37,598 nt of DNA, from the IMG/VR virus record IMGVR_UViG_3300002835_000491, positions 1 to 37,598 of that record; one strand, given 5' to 3'. The DNA is from a virus. Shown one piece after another: positions 8,301 to 34,858 of the stretch. A model generated the notes under the pieces. It searched no databases. It saw only the letters and a list, made by a program, of their open reading frames with translations, and was not told the DNA's origin. Position numbers and translations under genes: made by a program. Within the stretch, counting starts at the first letter, position 1. Each line of letters opens with the position of its first letter.

Positions 8301-8926
8301 CTTCTTATAGTTTATCAGGAAACATTTTAACATTTGATTCTGTTCCACCAAATACTGCTTACATTGAAGTTACAACTTTAGCAGCAACAAGTATAGTAAG
8401 TAGTTCAGGCACTCTGGTGTATAGAACATATACTGGTAACAACACAGCAACAAACTTTACAGTAACATCAGGTGTCAGTGCAAATAATTTACTTGTTGCA
8501 GAAAATGGTATCTTACAAAGACCAATTACAGATTACACAGTATCTGGAGCTAACGTAGTATTTTCTACTGCGCCAGCTAATGGTGTTGATATTCAAGTGC
8601 GTGAATTGGTTGCAGCTAGTTCGAGTGGTTCATCAATGACATGGTATATTGCAAATGCAAACACGACCATGGTTACAAGCAGTGGATATTTTGTTGACAC
8701 AACAGTTGGTCCAATAACAATGACGTTACCAGCAAGTGCAACACTAGGTGATACGATTCGTTTCAATGATTTGGCTGGAACATTCAGTGCAAACAATTTA
8801 ACTGTTGCAAGAAACAGTCATAAGATTCAAGGTATTGCTAGTGATTTGTTAGTAGACATAGACCAAAGTAGTTTTGGTTTAGTTTATAGTAACACTACAT
8901 ATGGTTGGAAGGTATTGGAACTATAA
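5384..8926 (+). CDS. Giant fibre protein with Asn/Ala heptad shaft
   Basis: This 1180-aa protein alternates shaft and globular modules. Dozens of heptads of the form ANxAFxx (for example SFANGAFVTANSAASFAN) fill residues about 15-55, 135-520, 600-745 and 785-925. Four beta modules with a shared pattern (F-x-GDG, later G(I/V)-x-Q, Y-x-V(T/S)G, then I-x-V) lie near residues 59-130, 532-597, 934-1004 and 1010-1080. Residues about 735-785 have AYAWGNHASAGYATTTYVGN and APTTLDTLNELATALGND, a hallmark fibre motif. The C-terminal ~95 residues (TMTLPASATLGDTIRFNDLA to GWKVLEL) form a beta head also known in phage fibres. A long trimeric fibre with knobs is inferred. Its stop overlaps the next start (TAATG). 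Confidence 0.9.
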   Translation: MEFSYIGNQDKKDVRLAGSFANGAFVTANSAASFANAAFARANAAYAQANTGGNFTAAPVSVYSDEFTANGATTTFNLSTTPTSENYIIAVVDGITQLRSTYTVTGNVVTFDSTFENGANVEITTITGGGAVDPYASNTANAAYATANAAFLQANNSSTDTWVRTQANTAYDKANSAASFANGSFVVANSASIFANASFDRANAAYAQANNSTDTWVRGQANNAFDTANSSASFANASFVTANASYLSQNTTAIFSNAAFDRANAAYAQANNSTDTWVRGQANNAYDTANSASSFANGAFVTANSAASFANGAFTTSNTADSKATSAGSFANGAFDRANSSYVTANSGSSFANGAFVTANAAASFANGAFTQANNASSFANGAFVAANSAAIFSNAAFERANSGYGVANTSASFANGAFVSANSGATFANASFVTANAAASFANGAFLRANSGYEVANSGASFANGAFTQANTGVTISSLAFSHANAAYAQANTGGGADTFARAQANAAFITANLAYNTIITASNTAALYYITRNFTGDGNTNTFSISSNTTANSILIFDNGITQNPLTDYSVTGNTITFVESPANGSIIQVRELLSNVPVVTDNSNSAFNRANSAYATANAAFLQANNSTDSWVRTQANNAYDTANNAGSFANGAFVTANSGASFANASFIVANSAASFANSAFITANAAFNAANNSTDTWVRTQANAAYNAANSGASFANGAFITANAAYAWGNHASAGYATTTYVGNAIANLVNSAPTTLDTLNELATALGNDANFSTTIATSIGVTNSFANGAFLRANASYDAQNTTAGFANASYTTANSGASFANAAFITANASYTAQNTTASFANGAFDKANSAASFANGAFVTANAAFNAANNATDPWVRNQANNAYNTANAAFTAANTAGGADTWARAQANAAFNKANTGSGGTLTGYVDAFTGDGSNSAFTLSTTPDSENIIFVSVQGVMQPKTSYSLSGNILTFDSVPPNTAYIEVTTLAATSIVSSSGTLVYRTYTGNNTATNFTVTSGVSANNLLVAENGILQRPITDYTVSGANVVFSTAPANGVDIQVRELVAASSSGSSMTWYIANANTTMVTSSGYFVDTTVGPITMTLPASATLGDTIRFNDLAGTFSANNLTVARNSHKIQGIASDLLVDIDQSSFGLVYSNTTYGWKVLEL
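5423..8165 (+). repeat. Asn/Ala heptad coding repeats (21-nt unit)
   Basis: Codons for Ala-Asn recur every 21 nt over long stretches, with Ala, Phe or Tyr at fixed places between. Frequent DNA words are variants of TCATTTGCTAATGGTGC and GCCAATGCGGCC. Synonymous variation is high between copies, while the amino-acid pattern is strict. The array is broken by beta modules at about 5559-5775, 6979-7175 and the NEL-type motif at about 7590-7745. Confidence 0.85.
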
Positions 8927-10335
8927 TGGCAACAAGTTTAAAATCATTAAAAGCAAACTCATTTACTCCTGTTATCGTTAGTGCAGGTGTATCGTCTAGT
9001 GTTAAGGTAACATCAGTAACTCCTTCTGTTGACGTTCCTGCTGGCGGACAAACATTGACTGTGACTGGTTCCGGTTTCAATTCTGGTGCAGTAGTTTATG
9101 TGGATTCAAATACTTGCAGTACAACTTATGTAAGTAGTACTAGTTTAACTTTTACTAGTCCAGCAAAAAGTTTAGGTGCATATCACCTGTATGTTTATAA
9201 CACTGATGGTAGTGTAGGTATAAAACCGAACGGCATAACATATAGTACTGCACCTTCATGGGTAACATCAAGTGGATCTTTATTTAATGCTGGTGTTGGA
9301 ACATCCTACACACAATCAGTTAGTGCAACAAGCGATTCAACTATTACATATAGTTTAACTAGTGGAAGTTTACCTTCTGGATTAAATTTAATTAGTGCTA
9401 ATGGTGCAATAACTGGTACACCAAGTACATCAGGCACAAGTACATTTACTATCACAGCCACAGATGCAGAAGGACAAACTGCAAGCAGGTCATTCTCAAT
9501 TGCTGCTGCGGATTCACCAACAAGCATTAACTATCTGTTGGTTGCCGGCGGCGGTGCTGGTGGAGCATATGGTGCTGGCGGTGGTGCTGGCGGACTCTTA
9601 ACTAATGACCTTTCTATTTCCTCGGACGTAATTTACACCGTAACTATTGGTTCAGGTGGAACATCCACAACAAGTTCAACTACTAGTGGTGCAAATTCTT
9701 CTATCTCTGGTTCTGGAATAACAACATTAACAGGTATTGGTGGTGGCGCAGGTGGTAGATCCCCGTTCCAAAATGCACAAGGTGCTAACGGAGGAAGTGG
9801 CGGCGGTAGTGGAACTGCTGACAACAACGTTGTGACTGGCGGATTAGGTACCGCAGGACCACCACGGCAAGGTTATAATGGCGGATCTTTCAATGGCGGC
9901 GCCAATTACTATGCAGGCGGTGGCGGCGGAGCCGGTGCTGTAGGTTATGACAATGATGCTCCGAGTAACAATCAAGGCAAAGGTGGTATTGGTGTTACTT
10001 CATCAATTACTGGCACATCAACATACTATGCAGGCGGTGGCGGCGGTGGAGGTTTTAATGGTCTAAGTTATGGCGGACTTGGCGGCGGCGGCCGTGGCGG
10101 CGGCAGTACTGAAACCTTTACTGGTACAGCGGGAAGTATTAACACCGGTGGTGGTGGCGGTGGCGGCGGTTATTCTGGCGGCGTTATAGCTGGTGGTTCT
10201 GGCGGCTCAGGTATTGTGGTTATACGATATGCAGATACATATCCAGATGCAGTAGTTACGGGTTCGCCAACATTCACAACAACTGGTGGTTACAAAATTT
10301 ACAAATTCACATCCTCTGGTAGTATAACATTTTAA
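8926..10335 (+). CDS. IPT/PIG plus glycine-rich adhesin-like protein
   Basis: I take the ATG at 8926, overlapping the previous stop as TAATG, rather than a TTG at 8905; this gives 469 aa. Residues about 27-107 are an IPT/TIG-like immunoglobulin fold (GGQTLTVTGSGFNSGAVVYV, then Y-x-LYVYNTDGS). Residues 110-194 resemble a putative-Ig (PIG) repeat: ITYSLTSGSLPSGLNL, ITGTPSTSGTSTFTI, ATDAEGQ. From 201 to about 436 is a glycine-rich domain beginning YLLVAGGGAGGAYG and ending GGSGIVVIRY. A final strand pair (GGYKIYKFTSSGSITF) closes it. This layout suits a surface-exposed adhesin, perhaps analogous to polyglycine-II tip adhesins of T-even phages, which is inference. The N-terminal half is paralogous to the next gene. 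Confidence 0.85.
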   Translation: MATSLKSLKANSFTPVIVSAGVSSSVKVTSVTPSVDVPAGGQTLTVTGSGFNSGAVVYVDSNTCSTTYVSSTSLTFTSPAKSLGAYHLYVYNTDGSVGIKPNGITYSTAPSWVTSSGSLFNAGVGTSYTQSVSATSDSTITYSLTSGSLPSGLNLISANGAITGTPSTSGTSTFTITATDAEGQTASRSFSIAAADSPTSINYLLVAGGGAGGAYGAGGGAGGLLTNDLSISSDVIYTVTIGSGGTSTTSSTTSGANSSISGSGITTLTGIGGGAGGRSPFQNAQGANGGSGGGSGTADNNVVTGGLGTAGPPRQGYNGGSFNGGANYYAGGGGGAGAVGYDNDAPSNNQGKGGIGVTSSITGTSTYYAGGGGGGGFNGLSYGGLGGGGRGGGSTETFTGTAGSINTGGGGGGGGYSGGVIAGGSGGSGIVVIRYADTYPDAVVTGSPTFTTTGGYKIYKFTSSGSITF

Positions 10336-14395: not shown

Positions 14396-14725
14396 ATGCC
14401 ATCGGTCTTAAAAATTTTAGGTCAATCTAATCCATCACCAAATACTGCAACAACTCTTTACACAGTACCTGCATCAAACAGTACAGTAATTTCTACGATT
14501 TCAATTGCAAACTTGTCAGCAAACACAACAAGTTTTAGAATTGCTTGCAGACCAGCTGGTGCATCATTGGCCAATTCACAATACATTTCATACGACACAG
14601 TTTTAGGTGCAAGTGATACTGTTGCTTTGACATTAGGTTTAACACTAGCAGCAACTGATGTTCTTACTGTTTATGCTAACACAGGCAACGTTACCTTCAG
14701 TGCGTTTGGTTCGGAGAATTATTAA
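14396..14725 (+). CDS. Small beta-sandwich virion protein, paralogue of 5056 product
   Basis: This 109-aa product reads as alternating strands: TTLYTVPASNSTVISTISIA, then TTSFRIACRP, YISYDTVLGASDTVALTLG, LTLAATDVLTVYAN, VTFSAFGSENY. The order of T-x-LYT, STVI, (I/M)-x-IAN and D-x-L-x-V matches the 108-aa protein at 5056. It sits 3 nt after the Mtd-N-like gene and its stop overlaps the start of the glycine-rich gene as TAATG, so coordinated translation is likely. A fibre or baseplate adaptor is inferred from this linkage. Confidence 0.75.
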   Translation: MPSVLKILGQSNPSPNTATTLYTVPASNSTVISTISIANLSANTTSFRIACRPAGASLANSQYISYDTVLGASDTVALTLGLTLAATDVLTVYANTGNVTFSAFGSENY

Positions 14726-15618
14726 TGGCAATTAAAAAATCTTCCTTAAGTGGATTAAGTTTTAATAGGTCTATATCTTATGTGCAACCAGTTGCTTCAG
14801 CTGGAGGTGGTGGCGGTGCTGTCACAGTTGGACCTACGGCCACGGGTGGTACAGTTACCACATTTACCGATGCAAACAATGCAACATACAAAGTACATAC
14901 ATTCACATCAAGTGGTTCATTTGTAGTAAGTTCTTTAGGTGCATCCAATAATAGTATTGAATTATTAGTTGTGGGTGCTGGTAGTGGTGGCTATTTGAAT
15001 ACAACCGGTGGTGCTGGTGGCCAAGTAAAATATTATGGCGCAGAAAATGCAAATCTTTTTACTAGAGATGTAGCTATTGCGGGTTCAGCACTAGCAACTT
15101 TAGAAGCAGCAACATACACAGTAACAATTGGTGCTGGTCAAGCAGCTGGTACCATTGGCACTGCGGCATCATCTTCTTTTATCGGAACAGGTATAAGTGT
15201 AACATCGACTGGTGGATCAAATCCACAAAGCGGACAAACCTATAGGATTTATTCAATAAGCGGTAATGGTTTTCAAACCGGTACATCAGGCAGCAATGGA
15301 TATTCACACGGTGGTTCTGGTGCAGCGGGCAGAGGAAGTACATACAACTCCGATATAGGTGGCCAAGGTGGAAATGCACAATATTTTATGATAAAAGGAA
15401 ACACAGTTACATTTGTTGGTGGTGGCGGTGGTTTTGGAATTAATGAAGGATATGGAGCAAATATGGAAAGATATAGAGCAACTGGTGGCCAAGGCGCCGG
15501 TAGAGCAGATGAAACTGGTGTAGCTAACATGGGTGGCGGCGGCGGTGCTGGTTGGAACGGTAGCGGCGCAAAAGCTGGCGGTTCAGGTATTGTAATTGTT
15601 AAATATAGAATTTCTTAA
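14725..15618 (+). CDS. Glycine-rich adhesin-like protein
   Basis: This 297-aa protein starts AIKKSSLSGLSFNRSISYVQ. Residues about 50-75 form the strand pair ATYKVHTFTSSGSFVV, which precedes glycine-rich domains elsewhere in this window. From about residue 78 (IELLVVGAGSGGY) the protein is glycine-rich, with TYTVTIGAGQAAGTIG in the middle and GGSGIVIVKY near the end. No IPT or LamG domain is present, so it looks like a stand-alone version of the domain in the 8926 and 21656 products. Such domains may form stacked polyglycine-II helices and bind host surface ligands, which is inference by analogy with T-even tip adhesins. Confidence 0.82.
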   Translation: MAIKKSSLSGLSFNRSISYVQPVASAGGGGGAVTVGPTATGGTVTTFTDANNATYKVHTFTSSGSFVVSSLGASNNSIELLVVGAGSGGYLNTTGGAGGQVKYYGAENANLFTRDVAIAGSALATLEAATYTVTIGAGQAAGTIGTAASSSFIGTGISVTSTGGSNPQSGQTYRIYSISGNGFQTGTSGSNGYSHGGSGAAGRGSTYNSDIGGQGGNAQYFMIKGNTVTFVGGGGGFGINEGYGANMERYRATGGQGAGRADETGVANMGGGGGAGWNGSGAKAGGSGIVIVKYRIS

Positions 15619-16023: not shown

Positions 16024-16401
16024 ATGTCATCACATGAACTTGGTTATTTTGGAAACATTTGGGTTAGACAACATGTTCTGGAAAGAAAAGGAGATAAAGC
16101 TCCTGGACACAAACATTTTTTTGACCATGTAACGTTACTAACAAAAGGTAAAGTAGAAGTTATTGTTGAGGGTAAAGAACCAAAACAATTTACGGCACCA
16201 ACATTTATTGTTATTAAAAAAGAACAAGAACATAAAATTGTTTCTTTAGAAGATGACACAATTTATTATTGTGTATTTGCTTTAAGAAACATTGACGGAG
16301 AAGTTATTGGTGACATTTACGGAGAACAACATGATCCGAATTCAGCACAAACATGTCCAGAAGATTATTGGGAAAAAGTAAAAAAGATTGAAAACATTTA
16401 A
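16024..16401 (+). CDS. Single-domain cupin protein
   Basis: This 125-aa protein has a cupin barrel. The first motif is about residues 28-45 (GHKHFFDHVTLLTKGKVEV), supplying His29, His31 and possibly His35 or Asp34. The second is about 58-75 (APTFIVIKKEQEHKIVSLED), supplying His70. These can form a 3-His metal site like those of iron- or manganese-binding cupins, although the usual glutamate of motif 1 is not obvious. The C-terminus has YGEQHDPNSAQTCPEDYWE. Cupins include sugar epimerases, isomerases, dioxygenases and ligand sensors, so the reaction cannot be named. It is the only likely small-molecule enzyme or sensor in a block of structural genes. Confidence 0.82.
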   Translation: MSSHELGYFGNIWVRQHVLERKGDKAPGHKHFFDHVTLLTKGKVEVIVEGKEPKQFTAPTFIVIKKEQEHKIVSLEDDTIYYCVFALRNIDGEVIGDIYGEQHDPNSAQTCPEDYWEKVKKIENI

Positions 16402-16422: not shown

Positions 16423-18147
16423 ATGTCACTACTAAAAATTAAACCGTTCATTATAGATGATACAACTGCAAGTGATGCATTTGTACAGGCTAATGCGGCT
16501 TTTTCACAGGCAAATTCTTCTGGTTCATTTGCTAATGGTGCCTTTGCACATGCTAATGCATCTTTTGCTTTCGCAAATACCATATCTGGTGGAGCCGCAA
16601 TTGATAATGTTGCTAGAAGTTTAGCCAATTCAAGTGCTTCATTTGCCAATGGTTCTTTCGATAGAGCTAATTCTGGTTACGACCAAGCAAACACTGGTGC
16701 ATCATTTGCTAATGGTTCATTTGTTGTTGCTAATTCAGCAGCCTCATTTGCTAACGGTGCCTTTGTAACAGCCAATGCAGCTGCTGTGTTTGCCAACGGT
16801 GCTTTCGATAGAGCTAATTCTGGTTATGGTGTTGCAAATACTGGTGCTTCATTTGCTAATGGTGCCTTTGTAGTTGCAAACTCGGCGGCCTCATTTGCTA
16901 ACGGTGCCTTTGTAACTGCTAACGCAGCCTTCATTCAAGCCAATTCAAATTATACAAGTGCTGTAACTAAGTTGATGGTTACAACTCCTGGTATGTACTA
17001 TAGTATTGACCAGTATTCAGGTAATAATCCAACAATTTATATTCGTGCTGGTGAAACAATTGCATTTAATCTAAATGTTTCTGGCCATCCATTTATGGTT
17101 CGATTGTCATCAGGAGGATCCAATTACGACACGGGTCTAACTCATATAGCTACAGACGGAACATTAAGTACAGGATCTTCAGCTCAAGGAAAAATTACTG
17201 GAATTTTATATTGGAAAGTTCCTTACGATATAGTTGGTTCAACTTACGTGTACCAATGTTCTGTTCATTCTGGAATGGTTGGAAATATTGTAATTGACCA
17301 ACCTACAGTAATTGCATTTAATCAAGCTAATGCTGCGTTCACACAAGCTAATGCTGCGTTCACAGCTGCCAATAATTCTACAGATGCATGGGTAAGAACT
17401 CAAGCCAATAATGCTTTTGATACAGCTAATGCATCCTTCATACAAGCAAACACACCGAGTTCTTTTGCTAATAGTTCTTTTGCTCATGCTAATGCGGCCT
17501 TTAATCAGGCGAATACTGGTGGTACAGATTCATGGGTAAGAACTCAAGCCAATAATGCTTTTGATACAGCTAATGCAGCCTTTAACCAAGCAAATACTGG
17601 TGGTACGGATGCATGGGTAAGAACTCAAGCCAATAATGCATACAATACCGCAAACTCAGCAGGTTCATTTGCTAATGGTTCATTTGTTGTTGCCAATTCA
17701 GCCGCAAGTTTTGCTAACGGTTCTTTTGTAACCGCAAATTCTGGTGCAACATTTGCCAATGCAGCCTTTGCTCGTGCTAATGCGGCCTATGCACAGGCAA
17801 ATACTGGTGGCGGTGCTTCATCCGTAGATACATATATCAGTCTAACAATGACCGGTGTAATAACTGTACCTTATACAGGCACCAGCAAGTTTTATCCACC
17901 TCGAGCTATGACATTAAGTGCAGTCTATGCAAATTTATCAACAGCAGCCAGTGGTGGTAACTTTACATTTATCATTAAGAAAAACGAAACTAGTATAGGT
18001 AATACATTTACTATTACTCAGAATCAAACTGTTATGACACCAGCGAATATAAGTGTAAGTTTGGCGACTACCGACTATCTAACTTTAGACGTAAATGGTT
18101 CACCTGCAACAGACTTATTCGTAAGAATTAAATATACAAACACCTAA
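16423..18147 (+). CDS. Heptad fibre with embedded cupredoxin-like domain
   Basis: This 574-aa protein starts MSLLKIKPFIIDDTTASDAF. Asn/Ala heptads occupy residues about 20-175 and 298-460. Between them, about 182-294, lies a cupredoxin-like beta domain: TIYIRAGETIAFNLNVSGHP, later YVYQCSVHSGMVGNIVI. Candidate type-1 copper ligands are His222, Cys279, His282 and Met285; the C-x2-H-x2-M spacing equals that of amicyanin. Residues about 467-574 form a beta head (FTFIIKKNETSIGN, TTDYLTLDVNG, DLFVRIKY) homologous to the head of the 26478 product. A trimeric fibre bearing a copper-site knob is the inferred structure. Whether copper is bound is unknown. Confidence 0.88.
   Translation: MSLLKIKPFIIDDTTASDAFVQANAAFSQANSSGSFANGAFAHANASFAFANTISGGAAIDNVARSLANSSASFANGSFDRANSGYDQANTGASFANGSFVVANSAASFANGAFVTANAAAVFANGAFDRANSGYGVANTGASFANGAFVVANSAASFANGAFVTANAAFIQANSNYTSAVTKLMVTTPGMYYSIDQYSGNNPTIYIRAGETIAFNLNVSGHPFMVRLSSGGSNYDTGLTHIATDGTLSTGSSAQGKITGILYWKVPYDIVGSTYVYQCSVHSGMVGNIVIDQPTVIAFNQANAAFTQANAAFTAANNSTDAWVRTQANNAFDTANASFIQANTPSSFANSSFAHANAAFNQANTGGTDSWVRTQANNAFDTANAAFNQANTGGTDAWVRTQANNAYNTANSAGSFANGSFVVANSAASFANGSFVTANSGATFANAAFARANAAYAQANTGGGASSVDTYISLTMTGVITVPYTGTSKFYPPRAMTLSAVYANLSTAASGGNFTFIIKKNETSIGNTFTITQNQTVMTPANISVSLATTDYLTLDVNGSPATDLFVRIKYTNT
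17387..17577 (+). repeat. 47-bp perfect direct repeat in the fibre shaft
   Basis: The sequence at 17387-17433 recurs identically at 17531-17577, 144 nt (48 codons) downstream, and its first ~31 nt recur again from 17612. It encodes WVRTQANNAFDTANA. The exact identity contrasts with the synonymous drift of most heptad repeats, so this is probably a recent in-frame duplication. Confidence 0.85.
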
Positions 18148-21655: not shown

Positions 21656-24600
21656 ATGTCAACTATTAGTATTTCCCCATCAGTTAGTGGGAAATCAACT
21701 TGGGATTTCGCTGTTGATGGTCCTTTAACCTTATCAACTGCTGGAACGTGGACGATTGTACCGTCAACCAACCTGTCTGTTCCCACAAAGATATGGGGTG
21801 GCGGTGGTGGTTCAGGTGAAGGTGGTGCAGGTGCAGGTGCAGGTTATGCAAATGGTTCTGTAACACTCGCATCAGGTACATCATATCAATTAATAGTAGG
21901 TGGCGGTGGTACAGGCGCAGGTTCAGCTACTCGTACTGCTGGTGGCGGTGGTGCCGGCTCAGGCATACAATTCACATCAAATTCAACTGCAATTCTAGTT
22001 GCTGGCGGTGGCGGTGGTGCTGCTGGTGGTGCAACACGACAAGGCGGTGGCGGTGGCGGAACTTCAGGTTCTAATGGTGATAGTGCTGGTTCTGGTGGTG
22101 GTAATGGTGGCACTCAATCAGCTGCAGGTGCCGGTGCCGTTGGCAGTCGAAGAACTGGCAACTCAGGTTCTGGCCGCAACGGCGGCGGCGGTGGTACAGG
22201 TACATCTACATCAGCAGGTGGCACAGGTTTTGGTAATGGCGGCGTAGGAACATACAACGGTGCCGATTCAGGTTCAGGCGGCGGTGGCGGTGGTTACTAT
22301 GGTGGCGGTGAAGGTGGCGGTGACGCTGGTGGTTTTGGTGGCGGTGGCGGTTCAGGTTATCTGCATCCAACACTTGTCTTAAACGGATCAATGACCAATG
22401 GTTCTAACAACCTATATGCCGGAAATTATACAGACTCAATTGCAGGAACCTCAGGACAAGGCGGTAATGGTTCAAGTAGTTTAAATGGAAATGCAGGTAA
22501 GATTTACTTAGATTTGACTGTGCCAGGATTTGTTGTAGCTGCAACAGTAATCGCCGGCAGAAATATTTCCATTACTTATAATCATAGTTCAAGTTCTAGT
22601 CCAGTAGCATACACTATCACTGGTGTTACCAGCGCAGACATAGGTGGAAATTCTTTAACTGGTGATATAACATTGTCTGGCCAGGCTGGAACTTTGTCAA
22701 TACCCACATCAGTATTTTCCACCGGCGGTAACAAAACACTGACGATTTCCGCAGGAGGATATTCTGCTTCAGTTTCTATCACACCTACACCGTATGTTAG
22801 AGCAGCTTCTGGTGGAACACAAAGTACTTTTGCTTCCGGCGGTAAAGTATATCGAGCACACACATTCAATGATAGTAGTAGTTTCACAATCTCTAACTTG
22901 GATGCCGGAGCTACTGCTAATGTATTGATAGTTGCTGCTGGCGGTGGCGGTGGCGGATGGGGTGGCGGCGGTGGTGCTGGCGGAGTCTTAACTTCAGGTA
23001 CTGTTGCATTAAGTCAACAAACATACACTATAACAATTGGTGCCGGTGGTGCTAGAGGAACTTCAGCATACACAGGCGGGGGAAATGGTGCAAACACCAC
23101 TGCTTTAGGGTTGACTGCTATCGGTGGTGGTGGTGGCGGTTGGTATAACGGTAACAATGGGTTATCAGGTGGATCCGGTGGCGGTGGCGGTATGGGTGAA
23201 GGCACCGGTGGTATCGGTGGCGCAGGAACTACTGGCCAAGGATTCGCTGGAGGAACGGGTTCAACCAATATCAGTAGTTGGGGTTCTAGTCGTGGCGGTG
23301 GTGGCGGTGGTGCCGGAGCAAATGGCACCACTGGAGTTGTTGCCACGGCCGGTTCTACTAATGCTGGTAAAGGCGGCGATGGATTAATCTGGCCTACTGG
23401 CGGATCAACATATTACGGCGGTGGCGGTGGCGGCCATGGTGGCACAACCGCCGGCAGAAGCATAGGTGGTTTAGGTGGCGGCGGTGCTGGCGGCAGATAT
23501 CAAGCTATTGGTGGTGATAGTGGTACGATTAACACAGGCGGTGGCGGTGGCGGTTCTTGGGGTGGTTCAGGTGAATTATGTGGTTTAGGTGGTTCTGGAA
23601 TCGTTATTGTATCTTATGAGTTGGAACCAGGTATTATTACGGCAAACTCGGTGACGGCAGGTGGTAACGTTGATGTTACTTATATTCATAGTTCTAATAC
23701 AGGTAACGTAGCCTATACTATCACTGGTGTTATCAGTGCAGATATAAATGGCACTGCACTGACTGGCAATGTGGTCGTAACAAATTCACAAGCCACATTA
23801 TCAATACCTACCGCATCTAAAATTGCTACCACAAATATATTAACACTTACGCTCGGTGCGTTTACTGCGAATGTGACCATCACGCCTGGTATTTCTGCAA
23901 GATATCTTATAGTTGCAGGCGCTGGCGGTGGCGGTTCTGACATGGGTGGTGGCGGTGGCGCAGGTGGATATCTTGCTGGTACTGGTTTATCACTAACAGG
24001 ACTTAACACCATTACGATTGGTGCCGGTGGCATAGGCGCACTTCCCGGTACTTCAGGTCCAGCCGGATCAAACGGAGCGAATACAACAGCATTTGGATTA
24101 ACTGCTATAGGTGGCGGTGGCGGTGCCAGTGTCCACAACACAGCTGGTTACAATGCAGGCAATGGTGGTTCAGGTGGCGGTGGATCTGGTGCTCGTCAAA
24201 GCAGTGCCAGTTACGGTGGTTTACCGGGAACCGGAACAGCAGGTCAAGGTAGTAATGGTGCTGCTAGTGGTGTGACATGGTATCCTGGTGGTGGCGGTGG
24301 CGCCGGTGCGGCCGCAAGTCAGACTGGTAGTCAGCAGGCAGACGGCGGTATTGGTTTAGTCAATGATATTTTAGGTACTAGTTATTATTGGGCAGGCGGT
24401 GGCGCAGGCGCTGGTTATAGTACATTTGGTGGTAATGGTGGTTTAGGTGGCGGCGGTGGCGGTGCACCAAGGCAAGGTGCCGGCACTACTAATGGTACAG
24501 GCGGTGGTTCTGCACTAAATTCAGGTTCAGTAGCTGAAATTGGAACCACAGTTGCTCAGACCAACAAAAAAGGCGGCGCAGGCGGCGTTAACACCGGCGG

Positions 24601-26428
24601 TGGCGGTGGCGGCGGATCACATTACAATGTAACAAATGATGGTGGTGCAGGTGGTTCTGGTATTGTAGTGGTTAGATACGCAGGTAGCCAACGGGCACTA
24701 GGCGGTAATGTTACTACAGTTGGTTCAGATACAGTTCATACATTTTATAGTAGTGGAACACTTCAAGTTTTCTCTGCTGGTTTAGTAGCAAGCGCAAACG
24801 CTTTATATTGGGGTGATAGTGTAACACTTACATATGCTGATGACTTGGCTGATGGAAGTAATGTTGCATACACAATTACTGGTGTTGATAGCGCACAAAT
24901 TAATGGTGCGTCACTTACTGGCAATTTTACTATTGCTAATAATATATCACAATTAACTTTACAAACGACACAAACAACTGTTTCAGCCAACACTATAACT
25001 ATTACTGCTGGTGGTTATACAGTAAATATAGCTGTATCTTATTTAACATCTTTCACAGGATCAATTGGTTCAAGTTGGGGTGCAAATTTAACATACACAG
25101 CTACAACAAATGGATTAAGCAATAACGCATTGATTCCTTATGCCATCACAGGTAGTAATGTTACTAGTTCGCAGTTAGCTAATTTTCCTTTAACTGGAAC
25201 ATTTACGAATATAATCGCACCGCTGCCATTAGGTAGTAATTATTTTGATGGCACCGGTGATTACTTAACTGTTCCTAATGGATCAGCATTTCAATTTGGT
25301 ACAGGTGACTTTACTATCGAATGTTGGATTAAAACCACAGACGCAGGATTTGATATCATCAATCAATATACATCAGGTGGAACAAATTGGGCTCTTTTAA
25401 TTCTTTCAGGTAATATCTACTGGCAAAACTCAAATGCGGCGTCCAGTTTGTATTATCTTGCACTCAGTTCATTACCTGCCAATCCAACAAGTGGTTCTTG
25501 GACACACGTTGCAATTACTAGAACATCGGGTACATTGAAATACTGGATCAATGGAGTAGGCACTTCATCGACACAGGGTGATTCCACTAATTATGCAGGC
25601 GGTGCATCACTCGTAAGAATAGGTTCAGGTAATTATGGAGATTTGCAAGGCAACATTTCTAATTTAAGAGTTGTTAAAGGTGTTGCAGTTTATACATCAA
25701 ACTTTACTCCTTCTGTAACACCATTATTTGCAACACAAAGTTCTGGAACAGGTATTGCTGCAATTACAGGTACACAAACAAGTTTATTAACATGTAAAAG
25801 TCAAAGCACTCTTACTGATTATAGTACGAATGCATTTGTTGTTACAGGTAACGGAAACGTTGCGGCCAATACAGAATATCCAGGAACATTTACTTCCGCT
25901 GGTCCAACTACAAACGTAGGAACAGGCACATTAATAATAACTACAAACACAAGTGAGCCTATATTATCTTCAGCAAATGGTTTTGTTACTGTTGGTGGCA
26001 CAACAAGGTCATTTACAATTAGAAATCCAAATCCTGCGATTCTTGGTGCTCGTAGTGCAGCTGCAGTCAATTCTATATCATTTATTAACACTCCAACTTC
26101 TGATATATATTCTGCAAATACTGAATCACTAACAAGTAATATTGCAATTATCTATTCACAATTAGAAACATCAAGATACACAACAAATACAGGTAATTCG
26201 GTGTTTATTAATACCATTGAATCTGATATTCACACACAAAACATAGAAGCAAAAACAGCTGTTGTATCGAATACACTAAATGCAGTATTAGAAATTACCA
26301 GAACAAGTACAACAATCACAACAATTATTCCAACTTCTACTTTTGCATACAGTTCAGGCACAGAAATATCAGCCAATGGAAATGCAATATCTGCGCCGGC
26401 TACGGTTACTCAAACCTGGTACATCTAA
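21656..26428 (+). CDS. Giant glycine-rich, Ig-like and LamG protein
   Basis: At 1590 aa this is the largest product here. Glycine-rich domains lie at about residues 47-286, 383-655 and 747-1037; the last two end in GGSGIVIVSY and GGSGIVVVRY. Each is followed by an Ig-like strand domain containing AYTITGV-x-SA-(D/Q)I-x-G-x-(S/A)LTG, at about 295-377, 660-744 and 1044-1128, with a shorter relative near 1131-1187. A LamG-like domain spans about 1190-1360 (NYFDGTGDYLTVPNG, FTIECWIK, WTHVAITR, LRVVKGVAVYTSNFTP). The final ~225 residues are Thr/Ser/Asn-rich with a helical part. A very large surface adhesin is inferred. AAATAAAT near 21626 is only a weak late box. Confidence 0.85.
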   Translation: MSTISISPSVSGKSTWDFAVDGPLTLSTAGTWTIVPSTNLSVPTKIWGGGGGSGEGGAGAGAGYANGSVTLASGTSYQLIVGGGGTGAGSATRTAGGGGAGSGIQFTSNSTAILVAGGGGGAAGGATRQGGGGGGTSGSNGDSAGSGGGNGGTQSAAGAGAVGSRRTGNSGSGRNGGGGGTGTSTSAGGTGFGNGGVGTYNGADSGSGGGGGGYYGGGEGGGDAGGFGGGGGSGYLHPTLVLNGSMTNGSNNLYAGNYTDSIAGTSGQGGNGSSSLNGNAGKIYLDLTVPGFVVAATVIAGRNISITYNHSSSSSPVAYTITGVTSADIGGNSLTGDITLSGQAGTLSIPTSVFSTGGNKTLTISAGGYSASVSITPTPYVRAASGGTQSTFASGGKVYRAHTFNDSSSFTISNLDAGATANVLIVAAGGGGGGWGGGGGAGGVLTSGTVALSQQTYTITIGAGGARGTSAYTGGGNGANTTALGLTAIGGGGGGWYNGNNGLSGGSGGGGGMGEGTGGIGGAGTTGQGFAGGTGSTNISSWGSSRGGGGGGAGANGTTGVVATAGSTNAGKGGDGLIWPTGGSTYYGGGGGGHGGTTAGRSIGGLGGGGAGGRYQAIGGDSGTINTGGGGGGSWGGSGELCGLGGSGIVIVSYELEPGIITANSVTAGGNVDVTYIHSSNTGNVAYTITGVISADINGTALTGNVVVTNSQATLSIPTASKIATTNILTLTLGAFTANVTITPGISARYLIVAGAGGGGSDMGGGGGAGGYLAGTGLSLTGLNTITIGAGGIGALPGTSGPAGSNGANTTAFGLTAIGGGGGASVHNTAGYNAGNGGSGGGGSGARQSSASYGGLPGTGTAGQGSNGAASGVTWYPGGGGGAGAAASQTGSQQADGGIGLVNDILGTSYYWAGGGAGAGYSTFGGNGGLGGGGGGAPRQGAGTTNGTGGGSALNSGSVAEIGTTVAQTNKKGGAGGVNTGGGGGGGSHYNVTNDGGAGGSGIVVVRYAGSQRALGGNVTTVGSDTVHTFYSSGTLQVFSAGLVASANALYWGDSVTLTYADDLADGSNVAYTITGVDSAQINGASLTGNFTIANNISQLTLQTTQTTVSANTITITAGGYTVNIAVSYLTSFTGSIGSSWGANLTYTATTNGLSNNALIPYAITGSNVTSSQLANFPLTGTFTNIIAPLPLGSNYFDGTGDYLTVPNGSAFQFGTGDFTIECWIKTTDAGFDIINQYTSGGTNWALLILSGNIYWQNSNAASSLYYLALSSLPANPTSGSWTHVAITRTSGTLKYWINGVGTSSTQGDSTNYAGGASLVRIGSGNYGDLQGNISNLRVVKGVAVYTSNFTPSVTPLFATQSSGTGIAAITGTQTSLLTCKSQSTLTDYSTNAFVVTGNGNVAANTEYPGTFTSAGPTTNVGTGTLIITTNTSEPILSSANGFVTVGGTTRSFTIRNPNPAILGARSAAAVNSISFINTPTSDIYSANTESLTSNIAIIYSQLETSRYTTNTGNSVFINTIESDIHTQNIEAKTAVVSNTLNAVLEITRTSTTITTIIPTSTFAYSSGTEISANGNAISAPATVTQTWYI

Positions 26429-33115: not shown

Positions 33116-34858
33116 ATGGCTAAACAAATTATTAATATTGGTATTAGAGCAAATGATGGCAAAGGCGATTCATTAAGAACGGCTTTTACCAAAACAAATA
33201 ACAACTTTACTGAGTTGTATACTACAGTTTCTTTTAACTCAAATACATCAAATACATATTATGAAACCAACCAAGAGTTGGCACAGAATGCTTTCAACAA
33301 AGCAAACACTGCTTCATTGGGTGATATTTTATTTGACAATACCACCATGTATAGTAATACAAAGGTTGAAATTGCTACTGACCCACATGAACAAAGAGCT
33401 TGGGGTATGTTGTTTGGTCAAATAGATACACAAGCCAACAATGCGTATGGCCATAGTGTTGCATATGATTCTGCAAATAACATTGTAGTATCAATGACAA
33501 CACAGAATGAAGTTACTGGTTTACCACAGGCAACAGTTATTAAATTTGATCCATATGGTTCAATATATTGGAGAAAATCTGTTCCTGCGGCCAACGTGGG
33601 TGGAACATTAGTAGCAAGTTATGGTGATTCAGTAACAGTTGATGGAAATAACAACATATACTTATTGACAAACATTCCAGATGACAGTTCAACCCGTGTT
33701 ACAAAATTCAATTATCTCGGACAAAATGTTTGGAACACTTTAATTACCGATTCAATTGGTTCTAAAGATATCTGTGTTGACGATGAAGATTTTCCATATT
33801 ATACTGGTGAACACAATTTAATTACGGGTCTTGATATTACAGGTGAATTGTATTTCACGTTTTATAATGCAGGTAATGCGGCAAACGCATCCGTTATTAT
33901 TGCTTTACCAAATCGTGGTGGTTTATTAGTTGGATCAGCAAACGGCCAAGTGCATAAGTTTGATACAGAAGGTGTTTACATTAGAACAAGTAATGTCAAC
34001 AAATATGGAAACACAATCATTGGACTAAGTTACGATTCTTCAAACAACTGGTATGCTGCAACGAATACAAACATCTATATGTTTAGAGCAAACAACGAAT
34101 TGGTTTGGGAAAAAGAAATAACTGGTGTAACATCACCAAAAATTAATTGGATTAAGTATAGTAATAATTATCTATATGTAAACGGAACAACCACAGACCC
34201 TAACAGTAAAACTGGATTCATTAATTACAAGGTGCTTGCGGCCAATGGTTACCTTGCTTGGGCAAATTCACTTCAAGTTCCAGGCGCAGGTCAAAATATT
34301 AGACTTGGCCATAGACAGATGGACGTAAAAGGTGATTTTCTTGTTGGTACCGGATATGCATATCCAAACGGCAGTTCAAAAGCAATTGCAATTACCTATG
34401 AATTACCGATAGACGGAACTTTACCTGGTCTGTATGCATATTCAAGTTCAACCAAATGGGGCGACTTTACATATGTGACTGTACCATCTGCAGCAACCAC
34501 AACAAGCACAACAGTTGGTAGTGGAAACACAACAGTAACACTTGCTATTAATACAACATATTCATATACAATGAATGCTGTTACTTATCAGAATCCTAGT
34601 CCAGAAAATGAACAAACAGTTGATTATTTTAAAGAACAATGGGAATTTACAAGCAACGGAACAATTGTTATACCTTCTTCAGGATCAAGCAACGTAGCTT
34701 TAGATGTAAGTGGAAAATCTTTGGCAAATGTTGCAAGCATTCAATTTGCAAACAATACAATTCAAGTTGGTGCTTCTGTACCTTTGGCTAATCTAAAGGT
34801 ATTGGTTGCGGCATCATCCGACTTCAATGACTTTAAGACTAGAATCGCAGCATTATAA
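33116..34858 (+). CDS. Beta-propeller-like virion protein between gp15 and gp16
   Basis: This 580-aa protein opens with IINIGIRANDGKGDSLRTAF, then NNNFTELY, an N-terminal motif seen in many T4-like fibre and baseplate proteins, and one short heptad (LAQNAFNKANTAS). Residues about 110-440 show at least five blade-like repeats of the form (I/V)-x-(K/M)F-x-x-x-G-x-x-x-W: VIKFDPYGSIYWRKSV, VTKFNYLGQNVWNTLI, VHKFDTEGVYI, YMFRANNELVWEKEI, YKVLAANGYLAWANSL. This suggests a beta-propeller. A beta C-terminus (FTSNGTIVIPSSGSSNVALD) follows. T4 has no gene here. Propellers often bind glycans or proteins, so a neck or tail decoration or receptor role is possible. Confidence 0.8.
   Translation: MAKQIINIGIRANDGKGDSLRTAFTKTNNNFTELYTTVSFNSNTSNTYYETNQELAQNAFNKANTASLGDILFDNTTMYSNTKVEIATDPHEQRAWGMLFGQIDTQANNAYGHSVAYDSANNIVVSMTTQNEVTGLPQATVIKFDPYGSIYWRKSVPAANVGGTLVASYGDSVTVDGNNNIYLLTNIPDDSSTRVTKFNYLGQNVWNTLITDSIGSKDICVDDEDFPYYTGEHNLITGLDITGELYFTFYNAGNAANASVIIALPNRGGLLVGSANGQVHKFDTEGVYIRTSNVNKYGNTIIGLSYDSSNNWYAATNTNIYMFRANNELVWEKEITGVTSPKINWIKYSNNYLYVNGTTTDPNSKTGFINYKVLAANGYLAWANSLQVPGAGQNIRLGHRQMDVKGDFLVGTGYAYPNGSSKAIAITYELPIDGTLPGLYAYSSSTKWGDFTYVTVPSAATTTSTTVGSGNTTVTLAINTTYSYTMNAVTYQNPSPENEQTVDYFKEQWEFTSNGTIVIPSSGSSNVALDVSGKSLANVASIQFANNTIQVGASVPLANLKVLVAASSDFNDFKTRIAAL

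Follow-up and report, generated by a model that had tools for sequence, protein, structure and literature searches.

The tail fibre encoded by a T4-like phage was found to carry, between two shafts, a domain that is a cupredoxin and that retains the four residues of a complete type-1 copper site. The reading that we hold to be probable, with some reserve, is that this domain is a true cupredoxin forming a knob in the middle of the shaft, and that its site is occupied by a metal, copper being the likeliest one, which stabilizes a surface-contact or spacer module. The DNA under investigation (hereafter, the window) is the whole 37.6-kb stretch of a virus record (37,598 nucleotides), in which the fibre gene is an open frame on the + strand. 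A sequence-only reading of this DNA had proposed a cupredoxin-like fold with a complete type-1 ligand set inside the fibre; the structural model, the fold search, the profile search and the conservation of the ligands all support this proposal. The features referred to in the text are the following:

16423-18147, + strand: tail-fibre gene holding the domain, 574 aa (open frame, PHROG tail matches, T4-like virion neighbours)
16465-16965, + strand: N-terminal Asn/Ala-rich shaft, about residues 15-181 (sequence; matches other phage fibre shafts)
16966-17304, + strand: cupredoxin domain, residues 182-294 (AlphaFold2 model, PDB fold matches, profile matches to PDB)
17086-17088, + strand: His222, first ligand, in the HPF motif of an interstrand loop (codon; invariant in 27 copies; aligns with the plastocyanin His)
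17257-17259, + strand: Cys279, thiolate ligand (codon; invariant in 27 copies)
17266-17268, + strand: His282, ligand (codon; invariant in 27 copies)
17275-17277, + strand: Met285, axial ligand (codon; invariant in 27 copies)
17305-17820, + strand: C-terminal Asn/Ala-rich shaft, residues 295-466 (sequence)
17821-18144, + strand: C-terminal fibre domain, residues 467-574, without the ligand set (no Cys, no His; sequence)
33116-34858, + strand: gp9-like protein, 580 aa (matches phrog_677 at positions 1-180 only, E 6.3e-12)

The codons of His222, Cys279, His282 and Met285 are present as had been claimed, and the beta domain does lie between two Asn/Ala shafts. Cys279 is the sole cysteine among the 574 residues of the fibre, whose histidines are located at positions 43, 222, 241, 282 and 355. 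Shaft-like flanks on both sides were also recognized, using a simple pattern, in 51 of the 90 distinct domains of related viral contigs. The full-length protein does not match any Pfam family at its cut-off; the shaft matches phrog_13173, a PHROG tail family (E 7.2e-5), and the cupredoxin domain matches phrog_677 (E 1.8e-25 to 1.8e-21), exclusively at positions 282-409 of the 412 of that profile. This family corresponds to gp9 of T4-like cyanophages (the baseplate wedge tail fibre connector), which ends in the module described here and, in the gp9 copies inspected, has all four of its ligands; the N-terminal part of gp9, in contrast, is absent from the 574-aa fibre and is represented in a separate gene of the window (33116-34858). 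The translation of the latter contains neither HPF nor C-x2-H-x2-M and lacks the cupredoxin domain; its N-terminus is like phrog_677, while its C-terminal part is unlike cyanophage gp9.

On the 3' side of the fibre genes, family matches disclosed genes for a head-tail adaptor, head closure, a tail sheath stabilizer, the gp9-like protein and the terminase, and PHROG matches place baseplate-wedge and fibre families before and among these virion genes. On the evidence of its shaft and of this virion gene neighbourhood, the 574-aa product of 16423-18147 is a tail fibre. Promoter- and terminator-like sites between 15500 and 18800 are fewer than the shuffled mean. The window terminase shares 54-56% identity with its counterparts in Synechococcus phages (best 12 of 2640 records), and a phrog_677 match exists in 11/11 related viral records; a megablast search with two thirds of the window (12600-37598) matched no phage record, and psbA, sought as a sign of a cyanobacterial host, was found in none of the 11 related records, which correspond to 12 given loci and may be fragments. 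The window phage seems to be related to the T4-like cyanophages and to come from an aquatic habitat, presumably fresh water.

Two further aspects of this region deserve to be reported. The gene located directly before the fibre (16024-16401) encodes a 125-aa cupin-like protein, which scores below the cut-off of Pfam Cupin_2 and weakly resembles phage families of short tail fibres and adhesins. Moreover, phrog_2295 is matched by three window genes (8905-10335, 14725-15618, also containing Pfam Gly_rich_2, and 21656-26428), pointing to repeated glycine-rich, putatively adhesin-like parts within one fibre cluster.

The fold of the domain was predicted with AlphaFold2 from an alignment of 38 copies, with a pLDDT of 97.0 and a pTM of 0.89, and the model is a Greek-key beta sandwich of the cupredoxin superfamily. 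According to DSSP, His41 (domain numbering) is located in the loop that joins strand 31-37 to strand 43-46, Cys98 ends strand 93-98, and His101 and Met104 lie in the loop preceding the last strand; this placement of the ligands agrees with that of cupredoxins. The Foldseek search against PDB retrieved rusticyanin first (E 4.5e-5), followed by plastocyanin, amicyanin, copper nitrite reductase and laccases; all of the 50 matches listed have a cupredoxin fold, and their identity to the domain is 11-23%. The comparison with plastocyanin and amicyanin that had been suggested for the predicted structure thus places both of them among its cupredoxin-fold matches. In the VIA-align comparison, copper nitrite reductase (CuNIR) gave a Z of 10.8, with 102 residues aligned at an rmsd of 2.3 Å, and AcoP a Z of 9.3. 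The named fold matches in BFVD, where many rows are nameless, include cyanophage fibre, gp9 and S8/S53 peptidase proteins; giant-virus proteins were also retrieved, namely beta-sandwich proteins of Marseillevirus and Pithovirus and a blue type 1 copper protein of Fadolivirus.

Searching PDB with the single sequence yielded weak matches only (pseudoazurin, E 0.47; plastocyanin, E 0.71), so that profiles were needed. With the profile of 38 copies (set A1) the match to amicyanin had an E-value of 0.0081, which became 8.6e-6 with a profile of 27 copies picked for diversity (set A4: 21 domains from phage records, the window domain and five domains from viral contigs); the 55 distinct PDB sequences matching the 27-copy profile at E<=0.1 are all of the cupredoxin type. 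In these alignments the Cys-His-Met loop is joined to that of amicyanin without gaps, and the C-x2-H-x2-M spacing is that of amicyanin, as had been recognized from the sequence. The first His is placed with less precision: relative to amicyanin it lies two positions off in 5/5 alignments of the 27-copy profile, and with the 38-copy profile it is in register in one of three alignments and two positions off in the other two. The sequence evidence for a type-1 copper site consists of Cys, His and Met of the last loop, which are conserved and placed as in amicyanin and PetE, and of a first His, which is placed as in plastocyanin and invariant in the 27 copies.

The domain scores 17.2 bits with Pfam PF00127 (Copper-bind), i.e., below the gathering cut-off of 21.2, although 32 of the 38 members of the 38-copy set match the same family at E<=1, the best of them at 3.3e-5. 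The scores with the families of small copper proteins lie far below their cut-offs: 14.3 bits versus 110.2 for amicyanin (TIGR02657), 15.0 versus 87.85 for plastocyanin (TIGR02656), and 16.7 versus 146.7 for rusticyanin (TIGR03095). Thus, the domain shares with amicyanin, plastocyanin and rusticyanin the predicted fold and the His...Cys-His-Met set, and with amicyanin also the loop spacing, but differs from all of them in these scores and in being part of a phage fibre. On the basis of the profile and PetE alignments (see below) and of the scores below the cut-offs, it is a cupredoxin outside every named family of small copper proteins.

PetE, the type-1 copper protein of T4-like cyanophages, is a free protein rather than a virion domain. 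Its copies in Syn33, P-SSM2 and S-H9-1 align with the fibre domain at all four ligands (hhalign, probability 92-94%); in HMMER alignments the first His is matched to that of PetE in two of three cases, the third alignment ending short of it. Among the six phages searched, these three are those in which a free PetE scores above the Pfam cut-off, and each of them also harbors the virion domain. A direct descent of the domain from cyanophage PetE was set aside, since both the length of the metal loop (C-x2-H-x4-M in PetE versus C-x2-H-x2-M in the fibre) and the residue following the first His differ, the plastocyanin copies having His-Asn and the fibre domain His-Pro. PetE is listed among cyanophage photosynthesis genes in the accessible part of PMC3037559.

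The module is widespread in virion proteins, a point that the sequence-only reading had not brought out. It is matched by 335 of 50,697 phage records, 329 of which are named Synechococcus, Prochlorococcus or cyanophage (many being close isolates), and relatives of it occur in at least 504 viral contig stretches. According to annotations or notes, in many cyanophages it is located at the C-terminus of gp9 or baseplate wedge tail fibre connector proteins; two copies are present in the proximal tail fibre of P-SSM2, and in S-H9-1 it lies at the end of a subtilisin-like protein. In PHROGs it is found inside phrog_677 and other families, nowhere labelled as a cupredoxin, and a search of Syn33 gp9 against PDB returned matches for its N-terminus only (residues 3-62, with T4 gp10 and gp9) and no solved structure with the domain. 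Judging from the variety of proteins that carry it, the domain is a mobile, shuffled virion module.

A domain with the same His-Cys-His-Met set was also observed as the last part of numerous proteins from marine Flavobacteriaceae and from other Bacteroidetes (L116-L156, e.g., L119, L122 and L138), retrieved from genome contigs with a pattern that demanded the Cys-His-Met motif. Two domain loci were found in each of the genomes AG-430-N14, AG-914-G02, SP3040 and TMED96, and these copies look like a C-terminal module of large, putatively surface or secreted proteins. A domain from a contig of the Nonlabens xiamenensis assembly (L117:3744-5237) is nearly identical to that of a protein of cyanophage P-TIM40 (L064:1265-2740), and might be either a phage-like sequence or contamination in the assembly.

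The conservation of the ligands is the point on which the role of the site can best be judged. A search with the window domain retrieved 62 IMG/VR loci, and these keep each ligand position that they cover. Since some of the patterns used in this first search contained the ligands, the database was scanned again with patterns lying between His222 and Cys279, which gave 78 loci (best of 138 relatives), many of them on contigs from the earlier scans. Among the 58 distinct domain strings found in these loci with a profile blind to the four columns, 54 have His-Cys-His-Met, three have lost all four residues and one is cut by the contig end. After clustering at 70% identity, all four ligands are found in 25 of 28 clusters and none of the four in the remaining three; rows covering less than 65% of the profile had been dropped before this count, including S-CAM1 (L069) and the segments L044-L046 cut at locus ends. 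Overall, 111 distinct rows were kept: 107 complete, three ligand-less and one with His only, at a contig end (L022 and L176 being one contig). The 41 loci from genome contigs were excluded from these counts, because the search pattern itself held Cys, His and Met.

The same picture emerges from the phage records. A complete domain is present in 20 of the 21 loci inspected (of the 335 matching records), for a total of 21 such domains, and all the inspected records except P-HM1 (20/21) are classified as Kyanoviridae. In the isolate S-CAM1 the copy keeps His-Pro-Phe and breaks off ahead of the Cys-His-Met strand. The 27 diverse copies agree without exception in just six columns (H41, P42, Y96, C98, H101 and M104), i.e., the ligands themselves, a Pro that follows the first His, and a Tyr close to the Cys. 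The His and Cys codons vary synonymously among 38 copies; dN ranges from 0.10 to 0.30 and dS from 0.39 to 3.65 in 26 of 37 relatives, these being crude estimates with a partly saturated dS. Over 92 ORFs, 96 Cys were counted in 12,358 domain residues versus 51 in 65,987 residues outside; the fibres are Cys-poor outside the domain.

A reading that might compete with metal binding is that the cupredoxin fold has been reused as a pure scaffold, i.e., a protein-contact knob whose four residues serve for packing or are kept by descent, with no metal in the virion. This is rather unlikely, even though three kinds of domains have in fact lost the ligands (L201, residues 93-234; L101, also found as L185, residues 632-765; L220, residues 419-546) and sit in fibres similar to the ligand-bearing ones. 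In all three the loss was read from the sequences, the loop being a gap in the profile alignment for two of them. One of these domains, L201, is still modelled as cupredoxin-like, with a pLDDT of 71.7 and low confidence over residues 1-37; copper nitrite reductase is again the top fold match, with a Z of 8.2, near the middling level of the tool. Other copies in the alignment used for this model carry the ligands, so that the predicted fold of L201 may lean on them. Moreover, SufI, a protein of cupredoxin fold that is not known to bind copper, is among the VIA-align matches of the window domain. The cupredoxin fold can probably be used in fibres without a metal site, as far as the L201 model indicates, and the L201, L101 and L220 knobs represent natural negative controls for metal binding.

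Nevertheless, common ancestry by itself would not be expected to preserve exactly the ligands and two adjacent residues when the median pairwise identity of the 25 ligand-keeping clusters is 0.386, nor should it lead to the loss of the ligands as a set. Whenever the site is present it is intact, and this is the best evidence available here that it has some function. Since hardly any column other than the ligands is invariant, and complete copies have either all four of them or none, the comparison of sequences favours a metal site in use over residues retained merely by descent, the latter being one of the possibilities raised by the sequence-only reading; another of its suggestions, a metal-binding knob, is strongly suggested by the same data.

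As regards the metal-binding knob, the presence of the four metal-holding residues in nearly all the relatives inspected suggests that a metal is probably present in the virus particles, copper being the likeliest. Copper is preferred because it is the metal bound by this set of ligands, within the same fold, in the characterized small cupredoxins; the His-Pro step is reminiscent, in turn, of the HPxHLH motif of multicopper oxidases. Free copper is scarce in the cytosol, where the fibre is made, which renders a loading after lysis more likely: the site would be filled at that stage with copper from the cell or from the water. The metal might then tether the last loop to the strand facing it and thereby stiffen or protect the knob, whose task in the fibre would be surface contact or spacing and not electron transport.

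A bolder proposal, which we regard as decidedly unlikely, is that many T4-like phages of aquatic habitats have virions that are copper proteins, whose type-1 centres, embedded in knobs of the fibres and baseplate connectors, would load after lysis and act in adsorption or baseplate triggering, either through their redox state or through a metal-controlled shape. Less probable still is a redox centre passing electrons, for instance with the host envelope or with electron carriers at adsorption; a redox-active knob had also been envisaged in the sequence-only reading, and nothing was found in its favour beyond the following. Electron-transfer proteins are typically recognized by having a complete type-1 ligand set, and the nearest solved sequences are those of amicyanin, plastocyanin and rusticyanin, which are electron carriers; however, no partner gene was recognized among the window proteins scanned, the knob is located in a fibre shaft, and the first His is followed by Pro instead of the Asn of the PetE copies. 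A type-1 site, on the other hand, buries its copper and holds it tightly. The idea of a copper lure, i.e., a counterpart of the Ferrojan Horse in which the metal borne by the fibre docks at a metal-uptake receptor of the host, appears far-fetched, since such a site is ill suited to hand-over, no receptor is known and psbA is found in 0/11 related records, in spite of the frequency of the domain in aquatic phages and of the iron in T4 gp37 and the HxH motifs of marine phage fibres discussed in the accessible part of PMC11705849. The iron-binding HxH motifs described there for the T4 gp37 and R22Y gp12 fibres do represent a metal site in a phage fibre; the window fibre, unlike them, has no HxH motif in its 574 residues, and hence does not fall among the iron fibres of the T4 gp37 type.

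Cupredoxins, to which the blue copper proteins of photosynthesis and respiration belong, are known as electron carriers and as domains of oxidases. No earlier description of a cupredoxin as a recurring module of virus particles was found among the open PMC papers listed; the accessible parts of those consulted (including PMC8115048 and PMC9605863) describe no cupredoxin in a phage fibre or baseplate, and neither "cupredoxin" nor "plastocyanin" occurs in the accessible part of the A-1(L) tail structure paper (PMC10966104). Metal loading is directly testable, since cultured phages (Syn33, P-SSM2 and P-TIM40) carry the domain. If the virions of these phages were indeed copper proteins acting at adsorption or baseplate triggering, this would be the first copper-dependent step of phage entry known to us. 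A loaded site would mean that copper is borne by abundant aquatic phages, which would affect their adsorption, the stability of the virion and trace-metal chemistry.
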